Below the pieces are notes generated by a model that saw only the letters and a list, made by a program, of their open reading frames with translations, did not search any database and was not told the DNA's origin. DNA of 6,475 bases from Gemmatimonadota bacterium (GTDB taxonomy: Bacteria > Latescibacterota > UBA2968 > UBA8231): contig PATE01000029.1 in assembly GCA_002712305.1 (NCBI GenBank), forward strand, positions 6,055-12,529, in the 5' to 3' direction. Made by a program: the position numbers and the translations under genes. Positions within the stretch are counted from its first letter, which is position 1; the number at the start of each line of letters is the position of its first letter. This document shows, piece by piece, positions 619 through 6,475 of this stretch.

Positions 619-1239
619 CTAGTCCCGAGGGCCCGTCCAGCGCGTGAACAGCTCGTGATCCAGTCCCAGCAGGCCTAGGGCCCGCCCAGCAATGAAGTCG
701 CCGAGATCTTCGAAACTCGTGGGCTTCTGGTAGAAGGCCGGCATGGCTGGCAACACACTGGCACCCGCCTCTGCAACGGTGACCATGTTGCGCAGATGGA
801 TCAGATTCATCGGTGTCTCGCGCACGACCAGCACGAGTGGACGTCGCTCCTTGAGCGTGACATCGGCGGTTCGCTCGATCAGATTTGAAGACGTGCCGTG
901 CGCGATGGCCGAGAGGGTTTTCGCCGAACAAGGCACCACCACCATGCCGTCACAGGGTGCCGACCCGGACGAGATCGAACGGGTCAGGTCGTTGACGCTG
1001 TGCTCCTCCAGGGTTCCGTGGTCAACCTCGTCACCCCCGACACGACGCAGAAAGTCCAACAGCGACTCGTCGGATGACCAGTCTTGTTCTTCGTGGAGCA
1101 CATACCGGCCATACTTCGACATGGCCAGGTGGACGTGGTGTCCATCCGCCAGCAGAGCACGCAAGGTGCGCACGGCATAAATCGCCCCCGAGGCGCCCGT
1201 GATCGCCACGGCGAAGGTCTTGTTAGTCCCACCACTCAT
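619..1239 (-). CDS. ubiX: UbiX-family flavin prenyltransferase
   Basis: This 206-residue protein makes prenylated FMN from reduced FMN and dimethylallyl (mono)phosphate, the cofactor of UbiD-type decarboxylases. Visible family features are the N-terminal FMN-binding GASGAIYA (15-22), a Ser-containing strand VHLAMSKYG (36-44), [13 protein letters not shown] (103-115), Arg123, the RETP block (140-143, Glu141) and Tyr170 in MPAFYQKP, all in the family order. It is slightly longer than the E. coli enzyme (189 aa), mostly from an acidic stretch at about 48-95. The start at 1239 is set by an ATGA overlap with the stop of the dehydratase gene; a longer in-frame start at 1323 would add 28 low-quality residues inside that gene. 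Shine-Dalgarno pairing is weak, so translation is probably coupled. In futalosine-pathway bacteria this type of protein (also called MqnM) serves the decarboxylation of prenylated dihydroxynaphthoate with a UbiD-like MqnL. No ubiD is in this window. Confidence 0.93.
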
Positions 1240-3221
1240 GGGGCCACAGCCTGCGAGTCGCCGCTGGTGCTGGCTTGGCCCGCTTCGAGCAATTTGAGAA
1301 TGGCCTCCACGTCGTAGACACACCCACCCCAGGTTCCCCCGCCTGCATTCTGCAGAGCAGCCCAGAGCCTCGTGTCGTCGGGCAATTCCGCTTCGGGTGC
1401 CAGATCCTCTCGCGAAGGTCGGCCCGAAAGCACCCGTGCTCCCTCGTCGGCTCCGAAGATCTCATCAGCATGCCCCACCAGGTCGATGCGGCCCTGAAGA
1501 TTCCTCGTATCGACAACGACCTCGAGCACATCGCCCTCGACGAGGCGTCCCACGGGGCCGCCGGCAAGGGCTTCGGGCCCGACGTGACCAATACACGGCC
1601 CCGAACTGAAACCGGAGAAACGGGCGTCGGTGAGCAACGCGACATCTTTTCCGTAGTCCAGATACTTGAGGGCGATCGTCACCTGGGCAATCTCCTCCAT
1701 CCCACTGCCCATGGGCCCCGAAGACAGGAGCACGATGACATCACCCGCCCGAATCTCGTCTGCCTTGATCGCTGCCATCAGAGCTCGTTCGGTGGTGTAG
1801 ATGCGAGCCGGCCCCCGTAACGAGTAGACGCCCTGCTCGTCGAGCATGCTCGGAGCGATGGCTGTGCTTTTCACGACAGATCCCTCGGGCGCCAGATTCC
1901 CCGAAGGGAAACAGACCGTACTGGTCAGCCCGCGCGCCTGAGCACGTTCTGGATCCATGATCACATCGACGGCGTCCACCCCGTCGCTCTGCTTGAGCCC
2001 CTCGCGGAAACGGACGCGCCGTTCACTGTCCTCCCACCAGGCCAGATTGTCCCCCACCGACTGCCCGCTCACCGTGGGCGCATCAAGCTTCAGAAGGCCC
2101 AACTCCCGCAGATGGAGCATCACCTCGGGCACACCGCCTGCGAGGAACGCACGCACGGTAGGATGAAACTCGGGTCCATTGGGCAGCACATCGACGAGCC
2201 TTGGTGTCTGGCGATTGATGCGATCCCAATCATCGACCCCCGGTCGTCGTCGACCCGCTGCATAGGCGATGGCCGGCACGTGCAGAAGTAGATTCGTGGA
2301 ACCACCGAACGCAGCATGTACGACCATCGCGTTGTGGATGGCATCATCGGTGACGATGTCATTGCTGGTGATGCCCGCCTGCTCGAGCCCCATCAATGCG
2401 CGCGCCGACCGCACAGCCAGATCCGTCCACACCGGTTCGCCTGAAGGCGCCAGTGCCGCATGGGGCAAACTCAATCCGAGTGCTTCTCCCACGACCTGGG
2501 ATGTGGCTGCTGTGCCAAGAAACTGGCAGCCGCCACCGGGTGAGGCGCAGGCGCGGCAACCAAGATCGTTAATCTCGTGGATGGTGATCTCACCATGGGC
2601 GAGGCGTGAGCCGACGGACTGAATCTTCCCGGCGTCCTCGCCCACCTCCGGCGGCAGCGTCACCCCTCCAGGAACCACGACCACGGGCAGATCTCGTGCG
2701 GCCGAGAGGGCCATGAGGATCGCGGGCAGCCCCTTGTCGCAGGTGCCGACGCCAAGCACACCCCGCCGGGTCGGCAGCGAACGAATCAGGCGCCCCATCA
2801 CGGTGGCTGCATCGTTGCGATACGGCAGGCTGTCGAACATGCCCGTCGTGCCTTGAGATCGTCCGTCGCACGGGTCGGAGCAGTAGGCGGCGAAGGGAAT
2901 TCCCCCAAGACGTTGGATCTCGTGTGCCGCAGCTTCCATCAGCAGCCCCACTTCCCAATGTCCTGTGTGGTAGCCGAGGGCGACGGGCGAGCCGTCAGGG
3001 GCGCGGATTCCCCCCATCGTGCTCAGGATCAGAAACTCCCGGCGCCCCAACTCTGCCGGATTCCATCCCATGCCCGCATTCTGACTATATCCGAAGATGT
3101 CACCGCTCGGCGACGACAGCACCGTCTGCTCGTCGAGAGCCAATGCGCCAGGGGGCCCCGCAACACGCGTGCGCACCTGATAGATGGAGTCGTCGGAGGA
3201 AAGCACGTCGGACGTTGTCAT
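1236..3221 (-). CDS. YjhG/YagF-family sugar-acid (D-xylonate-type) dehydratase
   Basis: This 661-residue member of the IlvD/Edd dehydratase superfamily closely resembles E. coli YjhG/YagF, which are D-xylonate dehydratases of about 655 aa. It is full length. Matching blocks include [18 protein letters not shown] (36-53), [20 protein letters not shown] (113-132), GTCDKGLPA (159-167), [15 protein letters not shown] (222-236), [14 protein letters not shown] (301-314), [11 protein letters not shown] (531-541) and [11 protein letters not shown] (614-624). Cys114/118, Cys161 and Cys222/225/232 include the likely Fe-S ligands, Asp162-Lys163 is the usual metal-site pair, and a Ser in the FSGFSSG block corresponds to the catalytic base of the superfamily. 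The expected reaction is dehydration of an aldonic acid to a 2-keto-3-deoxy acid; the true substrate is not shown by sequence. The start at 3221 has AAAGGT 6 nt upstream; an in-frame start at 3311 would run back into the prenyltransferase gene. It lies 10 bp after mqnP and overlaps ubiX by 4 bp, an unexpected place for a sugar-acid enzyme. Confidence 0.93.
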
Positions 3222-3227
3222 GGAATG

Positions 3228-3233
3228 ACCTTT
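3228..3233 (-). promoter_or_regulatory. Ribosome binding site that sets the dehydratase start
   Basis: The minus strand reads AAAGGT here, 6 nt before ATG at 3221-3219, and it overlaps the TAA stop of the prenyltransferase gene (3234-3232). This supports the 661-residue form over the in-frame start at 3311. Confidence 0.6.
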
Positions 3234-4128
3234 AGGTGACCGAGGCAGCCCAGAGGGTTTGATCTCCCAGTAGGAGCAAATCGGCGAGGGTGAACAGGAA
3301 ATAGGCCACACTGATGATGCTGTTCGCCGTCATGAAGGCGGTGTTGACCTTGGTCAGGTCGTCCGCCTTCATGAGCCGATGTTCCCACAGCAGGAGCAAG
3401 CAGATGGCGGCGACACCGATGAAATAGATCCATCGCAGACCTGCAGTCAGACCCACGGCGACCATGAACCCGATGGTGAACACGTGCAGTAGCTGCGCCA
3501 GGCGTAGCGCGGTCTGAAGTCCGAATCGAACGGGAATCGAGTGGAGACCCGTATGCTGATCGTACTCGTGATCCTGACAACTGTAGAGAATATCGAAACC
3601 GGCGACCCAACTCAGCACGGCCAGACCCAATAGCGCTGGCGACAGGTCGAAACGGCCCGTTACGGCAATCCAGGCGCCGAGGGGTGCCAGCCCCAACCCG
3701 AGTCCCAGAACCAGATGAGATCCCCAGGTGAACCGTTTGGTGAAGGAGTATCCCCCGATCACGAACAGCGCCACGGGGGAAAGGACCAGACAGAGAGGAT
3801 TCAGCTTCCACGCCGCCCCGATCAGACCCAGTGCGGACAGGATCACAAAGAGCCACACCGCGGGCGGCGAGAGGACTCCCCTGGGGAGCTCCCGTTGCGC
3901 CGTACGTGGGTTGCGGGCGTCGATGTGACGATCCACGAGTCGGTTGAAGCCCATTGCCGCCGAGCGTGCTGCGACCATGGCCACCACAATCCAACCGATC
4001 TGCGCTCCTTGAATCCCGCTGACGGCCGCAGCCAACGCAGCGCCACTGAGAGCAAAGGGGAGGGCAAAAATCGAGTGCGAGAATCGAATCATCCGCCCGT
4101 AGCTCAACACGGGCTCAGCGAAACTCAT
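3232..4128 (-). CDS. mqnP: UbiA-family prenyltransferase (menaquinone, MqnP type)
   Basis: This is a 298-residue integral membrane protein with about eight to nine hydrophobic segments. Both Mg-diphosphate motifs of the UbiA superfamily are present: [15 protein letters not shown] at 62-76 (Asn62, Asp66, Asp70), followed by RELPRG, and [12 protein letters not shown] at 179-190 (Asp179, Asp186, Asp190), followed by HSIPVRFG. It would transfer a polyprenyl chain onto an aromatic acid at the inner membrane. The sequence alone resembles 4-hydroxybenzoate polyprenyltransferase (UbiA). The position directly after mqnC and mqnA points instead to 1,4-dihydroxy-6-naphthoate as acceptor, the MqnP role. 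ATG at 4128 is 2 bp after the mqnA stop, with GGAAGGT at 4143-4137 inside the end of mqnA. Length is normal for the family. Confidence 0.9.
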
Positions 4129-4130
4129 CT

Positions 4131-5018
4131 CTACAGACCTTCCGACGGATAAAAGCGGAGCACGGGCTCGTGATCGATAACGCCATGGAGTGCGGCGAGA
4201 CGGTAAAACTCGGCAAGTCCATCCAACTCATCGGGGCCCAGATCGTGGTGGATGTGATGCGTCAGGTACTTCTCGTAGAGGACCGCGTCGCCGGCACGCT
4301 CGCGCTGAAAGACGGCGGCAATCTGAGGAAGGCATGCTGATCCAGCGAGACTTGCCTGCTTCAGCCGGGCCACATGTCCGGCGCTTAGACGATCCTGCCT
4401 TCCTGCCCAGAAGGCGAATACGAAGGGTTTCCCCGTCATCTGCGTCCACTCGTCGGCCAGATCAAGGCTCTGACGCGCCCCCTGTTCAGCCGTGACGAGG
4501 GGCAACACCGGATCGCCGATCAGCAGGGCTGCATCTGCCGTGTGCAGCATCGCGTCTAGATCGGGGGCCGCGGGAACTTGCTCAGGATCCAGATTGAATC
4601 TCTCACGAAGCAGGATCGTCATCAGGGCGACGGAGGTTCGCGAACTGGTATCGACAGCAATCCGGCGGATCTTTGATAGGTCTCCTCGGTAGAACAGACG
4701 AACCGTGAGAACCTCTCCCCGCGAGGCGATGGAGATGCCGGGAACGATCCAGTAGTCCGGATCGCTGCGTGCATACTCGATGACGGGAATCAAGCCAACA
4801 TCGATGCTGCCCGCCGCCAGATCAGCTGCGCATCGCGATGGAAGATCGTAGCGGAGTTCGAAGGGACTGTCGGGACCGTCGAGACCGACGGTGAGTGGAC
4901 GTGTGTTGAGGAAACTCACCGCACCGAGGCGGATCTTGGGGATGCCAGGCTCATCGTCACGCTCATCTTCACCCTCTTCGTCAGACGAGGTTGATGCACC
5001 GGCCTCCGTCGAGGTCAT
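4131..5018 (-). CDS. mqnA: Chorismate dehydratase MqnA
   Basis: This 295-residue protein has the periplasmic-binding-protein-like fold of the MqnA/MqnD family. It converts chorismate to 3-[(1-carboxyvinyl)oxy]benzoate, the first committed step of the futalosine pathway, in the cytoplasm. Diagnostic blocks are IRLGAVSFLNTRPL (29-42, with the family Asn at 38), CAADLAAGSIDVGLIPVIEY (63-82), SIASRGEVLTVRLF (96-109), VDTSSRTSV (122-130) and ALLIGDPVL (164-172). The LNTRP and DVGLIPV blocks favour MqnA over MqnD. Residues about 11-25 form a very acidic, Ser/Asp/Glu-rich extension ahead of the fold; I know of no such feature as standard in the family. The ATG at 5018 overlaps the mqnC stop as ATGA. 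The only purine-rich site (GGAGG) is about 17 nt upstream, so translation is probably coupled to mqnC. No later good start exists before the conserved core. Confidence 0.93.
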   Translation of the reverse strand: MTSTEAGASTSSDEEGEDERDDEPGIPKIRLGAVSFLNTRPLTVGLDGPDSPFELRYDLPSRCAADLAAGSIDVGLIPVIEYARSDPDYWIVPGISIASRGEVLTVRLFYRGDLSKIRRIAVDTSSRTSVALMTILLRERFNLDPEQVPAAPDLDAMLHTADAALLIGDPVLPLVTAEQGARQSLDLADEWTQMTGKPFVFAFWAGRQDRLSAGHVARLKQASLAGSACLPQIAAVFQRERAGDAVLYEKYLTHHIHHDLGPDELDGLAEFYRLAALHGVIDHEPVLRFYPSEGL

Positions 5019-6475
5019 GAGGCCGCCGCCAGCGCCTCCAGGCGGGGCCGCGTAGCGACCGTCTCGTAGGCTGTGTTGCGGCGACGCGGCTCGTACCCTG
5101 CGTCGGCGATGAGGCGCTCCATGTTCTGGAGCCCCATCTCCTGCGTGTGACTCGTCCCGGCAGCGGAGACCACGTTTTCCTCAAGCATCGTGCTGCCAAA
5201 GTCATTGACTCCGTATCGGAGACTGACCTGGGCGATACGCGGCCCCTGGGTCACCCAAGACGCCTGAAAGGACGGGATGTTGTCGAGATACAGGCGAGCC
5301 ACGGCGACGGTTCTCAGGTGGTCGAAGCCCGTCGCCTTCATGCCATTCCAACGCTCGTTGTCGGCGCCAAGGTCGGTGTCGTCGGGCTGGAAGTTCCACG
5401 TGATGAACGCCGTGAAACCACCGGCTTCGTCCTGCAGGTCGCGAATGAGCCGCAGATGTTCGATGCGGTGGTCGGTCGTCTCCACGTGACCATACATCAT
5501 GGTTGCCGTCGTCCGCATCCCCAGACCATGGGCGATGCGATGCACCTCCAGCCAGTCGAGGGTGCGGTCCTTGCGGAAGCCGATGATGTCGCGCACGTCG
5601 TCGTTGAGGATCTCGGCGCCGGCACCGGGAATGGAATCGAGCCCGGCGTCTCGCAGCCGTTGGATCGTGTCGGCAAGAGACAGCTTGGACAGGTGGGCGA
5701 TGTAGATGATCTCCGTCGCCGACAGGCAGTGCAATTGCACCGACGGATAACGATCGCGGATGTCCGAGAGCAGATCCTCATAGTAGTCGAGTCGCAGCTT
5801 TGGGTTGAGACCGCCCTGCATGAGGATCTCATTCGACTTCGGTTCGTCACCACCAAAAGCCGTCAGTTCATCGATCTTGGCAAAGATCTCTTCTTTGGGC
5901 AGCGTGTAGCCTTCATCGGAACCGGGCGCCCTGTAGAAGGCGCAGAAATCGCACTTCACCCAACACACATTCGTGTAGTTGATGTTGCGCCCCACATTGT
6001 AGGTGACGACTTGCTCGGGGTGTCTACGCATGCGCACGGCGTTGGCCAGCATCCCCAGTTCGGCCACATTCGGATGCGCGAACAGAACCTGCGCGTCTTC
6101 GACGGTGATGCGCTCGCCATCGTGGATCTCGAAGGAACACTGGATGCGCGAGATGCCCGACCCCTCGACTTTGATGTCGCCCACGCGTCCAATAGTTGCC
6201 AGCGTGTAGCGGGACTTGGAACCAATATGGAAGCCTATATCGAGGCCGTATAAAGGGATGTTCTCGTTGTTGGCGAATTTAGAGACAAGGTGAACATTTT
6301 CGGGGTGTCTGAGAACGGATTCGGCCCGCTCGTTCCCAGGCACCAGTGAAAAGAGAGCAAGAGGATGCGGGCCGTCGCGCGGCATACTGATTTGGGGCGC
6401 GAGAGGGGAGTATTGAGCAGAACCAAGACGGGAAAACAATGGGGACGGAGTGTTATCGATGCTGGGATCATGTGA
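5015..6475 (-). CDS. mqnC: Cyclic dehypoxanthinylfutalosine synthase MqnC, with foreign N-terminal extension, open at right edge
   Basis: MqnC is a radical SAM enzyme that cyclises dehypoxanthine futalosine to cyclic DHFL. MqnC homology begins near GERITVEDAQVLF (about 6118) and runs to the stop at 5015. It includes VVTYNVGRNINYTNVC, the cluster motif CWVKCDFC (Cys codons at 5965-5963, 5953-5951 and 5944-5942), MQGGLNP, SIPGAGAEIL, TTATMMYGHVE, ITWNFQP and QASWVTQGPRIAQVSLRYG. NDFGSTMLEENVV and the following blocks favour MqnC over the related aminofutalosine synthase MqnE. A short extra stretch, about four residues (DEPKSN region, near 5850), precedes the MQGG block. The frame continues upstream to the window edge with no stop. 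Possible starts are ATG at 6385 and TTG at 6439, but this upstream part is FHA-like and not MqnC-like. Normal MqnC proteins begin only a few residues before the GER block, so the native start is probably missing. The gene heads the operon and overlaps mqnA by 4 bp. Confidence 0.88.
   Translation of the reverse strand, partial: SHDPSIDNTPSPLFSRLGSAQYSPLAPQISMPRDGPHPLALFSLVPGNERAESVLRHPENVHLVSKFANNENIPLYGLDIGFHIGSKSRYTLATIGRVGDIKVEGSGISRIQCSFEIHDGERITVEDAQVLFAHPNVAELGMLANAVRMRRHPEQVVTYNVGRNINYTNVCWVKCDFCAFYRAPGSDEGYTLPKEEIFAKIDELTAFGGDEPKSNEILMQGGLNPKLRLDYYEDLLSDIRDRYPSVQLHCLSATEIIYIAHLSKLSLADTIQRLRDAGLDSIPGAGAEILNDDVRDIIGFRKDRTLDWLEVHRIAHGLGMRTTATMMYGHVETTDHRIEHLRLIRDLQDEAGGFTAFITWNFQPDDTDLGADNERWNGMKATGFDHLRTVAVARLYLDNIPSFQASWVTQGPRIAQVSLRYGVNDFGSTMLEENVVSAAGTSHTQEMGLQNMERLIADAGYEPRRRNTAYETVATRPRLEALAAAS
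6119..6475 (-). other. FHA-like, fungal-looking segment fused in frame to mqnC
   Basis: Read on the minus strand in the mqnC frame, this segment encodes a Ser/Pro-rich stretch and then an FHA-like region: YGLDIGFHIGSKSRYTLATI, then GR, then VEGSGISRIQCSFEIHD. The GR and SR motifs are typical of forkhead-associated phosphothreonine-binding domains. The particular wording (FHIGSKSR, SRIQCSFEI) resembles, from memory, FHA proteins of filamentous fungi. The domain stops after about its first half, without the later conserved strands, exactly where MqnC homology starts. Codons here include many AT-ending ones (AAT, GTT, CTT, TCT, AAA, TTA, ATA, CAT, ATT, GGT), unlike the GC-ending codons of the rest of the operon. 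This is most likely foreign sequence joined by assembly. No operon promoter can be assigned because the native upstream region is not present. Confidence 0.55.

Follow-up and report, generated by a model that had tools for sequence, protein, structure and literature searches.

An open reading frame that seems to fuse an FHA-like segment to the menaquinone enzyme MqnC, at the end of a contig in a Latescibacterota-like metagenome-assembled genome (4.77 Mb, 146 contigs), almost certainly records a chimera made during assembly or library construction, and mqnC itself is ordinary. The stretch analyzed (the window, 6,475 nucleotides) comprises bases 6055-12529 of the plus strand of contig C50, and its position 6475 is the final base of that contig. 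On the minus strand, the frame at 6475-5015 continues for 486 codons without a stop and runs off the contig end. Two unequal parts make up this frame: the native mqnC gene (5015-6129, minus strand), which has lost its first eight codons through the join; and a foreign segment of 346 bases (6130-6475, minus strand), an open-frame part of an unrelated protein that includes a weak FHA-like stretch, TLATIGRVGDIKVEGSGISRIQCSF.

The mqnC part presents no difficulty. Frame residues 121-472 match the equivalog model TIGR03699 over model positions 1-341 of 342, scoring 459.8 bits against a cut-off of 428.1. Because this score lies above the equivalog cut-off, the enzyme is identified as cyclic dehypoxanthinyl futalosine synthase. 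The protein is 90% identical to MqnC of a genome from the same genus (G001), and its closest named relatives come from metagenome-assembled genomes that bear the label Gemmatimonadetes or Latescibacteria/Latescibacterota, with JABJJN010000069.1 as the top match at 91% identity. Its sole difference from other members of the MqnC family is the N-terminal piece, read here as artefactual, that replaces the first eight residues.

The surroundings also are those of a futalosine pathway gene. Downstream, and likewise on the minus strand, lie four further genes: an mqnA-like menaquinone biosynthesis gene (4131-5018; PF02621, E 2.6e-52), whose synteny is kept in relatives; a UbiA-family, MqnP-like prenyltransferase (3232-4128; PF01040, E 6.5e-57, and TIGR01475 above its cut-off); a YjhG/YagF-family dehydratase (1236-3221; TIGR03432, 1081 bits against a cut-off of 808); and a UbiX-family flavin prenyltransferase (619-1239; TIGR00421, 199 bits against a cut-off of 109). 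The remaining member, mqnE, is on a second contig, C37, and the gene order is that of G001, in which a single contig carries mqnE-mqnC-mqnA-ubiA-yjhG/yagF-ubiX. (The dehydratase, which resembles D-xylonate dehydratase, is placed between the prenyltransferase gene and ubiX of a menaquinone cluster. It adjoins the same genes in G001, G015, and G007, with a different neighbor in none of them, and may have been recruited to the locus or merely carried along with it.)

The decisive evidence comes from C37. When the whole genome was searched with the fused protein, the second place found was the end of this contig, with 96% identity over residues 113-288. The last 520 bases of C37 (13398 bases in all) duplicate window positions 5610-6129 on the minus strand: 515 of the 520 are identical (99%), and the other five comprise two substitutions and three Ns. 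This identity breaks off sharply at 6129/6130. From AGATCCACGATGG onward the two contigs match; upstream of AGATCCACGATGG they are unrelated. Beyond the breakpoint C37 reads ATGATCAACGATATTGCACAGAAGATCCACGATGG, which encodes a normal mqnC start, MINDIAQKIHDGERI, and the ATG directly follows the mqnE stop codon. Thus the native protein begins MINDIAQK-IHDGERI, whereas the window has ...SFE-IHDGERI, the first eight residues (MINDIAQK) having been exchanged for a foreign frame that ends in SFE. The presence of this intact native start on C37 led to rejection of a real fusion gene.

Because the order in G001 is that of C37 followed into C50, the two contigs are read as halves of one ordinary locus, whose mqnC start is the one at the C37 end, directly behind mqnE. 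The 520-base duplication then is an overlap that the assembler left unmerged, probably through strain variation. Indeed, C37 contains 55 single Ns compared with 11 in C50 (for example at 1945-5379 and 8357-13027 of C37), which suggests either strain variation or a low-quality consensus in this region of the assembly; one or the other could account for the unmerged ends. The mqnE frame on C37 (11395-12855) also is open for 486 codons, but homology to relatives is seen from residue 97 onward, and codons 1-96 probably are mere open upstream sequence.

Related genomes give the same picture. The fused protein finds a match in 43 of 60, and the best alignments nearly all start at query residue 113-119. 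Two start earlier, at residue 92 in G041 (with a stop codon inside the matched stretch) and at residue 103 in G025, and both are regarded as alignment edges. MqnC of G001 starts with MTADITDIASKVGDGERIT and is preceded by an in-frame stop codon; in other relatives the protein starts M/V-I-x-D-I-A-E/D-K. No FHA-like piece precedes mqnC among the mqnC-carrying relatives examined. The first-pass annotation had named recurrence of the fusion in independent genomes as evidence against an assembly error; the fusion was looked for in these relatives and is absent from them.

What, then, is the 346-base piece? Within the genome, DNA and protein searches returned only the piece itself. Searches of 63 further genomes from the phylum detected no relative, and neither did those of the genome_contigs and viral_contigs collections, within the sensitivity of the tool used for them; phages gave no match, and plasmids only one at chance level (E 0.7). 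By composition the piece is foreign to this genome: GC is 0.549 compared with 0.613 in the native mqnC part; GC at third codon positions is 0.61 compared with 0.79; and among equally long pieces of this genome it ranks in the bottom 0.8% under a third-order Markov model (the background being 20 stretches of the genome). GC by itself is not decisive, as 4.4% of pieces are equally low.

The first-pass annotation described an mqnC frame that extends into an FHA-like sequence. The open frame stands; the FHA identity is weak. Searched with the full frame, the Pfam FHA model (PF00498) aligns to residues 94-127 with 14.4 bits, below the curated cut-off of 20.7 (E 0.053). The likeness consists of a short stretch that contains GR and SR motifs and aligns to profile positions 2-37 of 67, so the C-terminal half of the domain is missing. 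When the piece was scanned alone, including as sub-pieces, Pfam yielded no match and the FHA signal disappeared. A sequence search of the PDB with the piece found no match, and a single-sequence structure prediction was uninformative (pLDDT 35).

A fungal source is a plausible lead. The piece closely resembles a motif of the type IGR...VEGSSI-x-R-(V/I)QCSFEI, which is frequent in fungal FHA proteins. The absence of the piece from the prokaryotic, plasmid, and phage collections is consistent with derivation from a fungal FHA protein. If the fungal label is right, then the mis-joined DNA derives from a fungus in the sample.

These observations suggest how the frame arose. The foreign 346 bases almost certainly were attached wrongly to the end of C50, presumably through mis-extension by the assembler or through a chimeric library molecule, and the foreign coding stretch by chance lies in the mqnC frame at the join (6129/6130). 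Such chance is not exacting: two coding pieces joined at random share strand and frame about one time in six, so the open frame is no evidence for a fusion. Similarly, the interruption of both proteins at one point is the expected outcome of a random join. The first-pass annotation had in fact favored a chimeric join near a contig end, pointing to the truncation of both partners at one point, and had noted a different codon pattern in the FHA-like part. The join, the truncated MqnC, and the change in composition are borne out: the lost residues are those encoded before the breakpoint at which the identity with C37 ends; composition shifts as described above; and the native start on C37, the overlap of about 520 bases reaching exactly to the join, and the lack of any relative with the extension speak for the chimera. 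Counted against it are the frame that stays open across the join, the two bases and three Ns by which C37 and C50 differ over their overlap, and the nominally earlier alignment starts in G041 and G025.

Could another strain, or an additional copy of mqnC, truly bear an FHA-MqnC fusion, with C37 representing the ordinary copy? The assembly does hold two versions of the 5' half of mqnC, separated by those two substitutions and three Ns, and the frame is open. However, C37 ends within mqnC at the point from which C50 continues with the remaining genes in the G001 order; the piece is foreign in composition and lacks a relative in the 63 genomes of the phylum; the join lies only 346 bases from the contig end; and the fused FHA-like piece would be devoid of its C-terminal strands. 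No literature treating FHA, radical SAM, and the futalosine pathway together was found. A rare strain in which a eukaryote-derived, FHA-like segment really is fused to MqnC is very improbable. It is likewise hard to credit a recent insertion of foreign DNA by lateral transfer into mqnC in the population sampled, with no functional fusion resulting: the foreign composition and sharp boundary would fit, but an intact copy is present in the same assembly, the annotated part of the window holds no mobile-element gene, and the contig ends ahead of any second boundary.

The chimeric join, by comparison, is a typical case of its kind. It shares with other chimeric contigs in metagenome-assembled genomes its site at a contig end, a sharp change in composition, and an intact copy elsewhere in the bin, on a different contig, and it shows no feature that sets it apart from them. 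The 346-base piece probably is small for gene-based detection of chimerism. GUNC and similar tools are built for detecting chimerism (PMC8201837).

If the fusion were true, then it would place a domain of the phosphopeptide-binding type on a menaquinone enzyme; nothing supports it. The case instead provides a caution, that an open frame across a join in a metagenome-assembled genome is no evidence of gene fusion. Here the matter was settled by searching the other contigs of the bin, one of which carries the native end of the gene.
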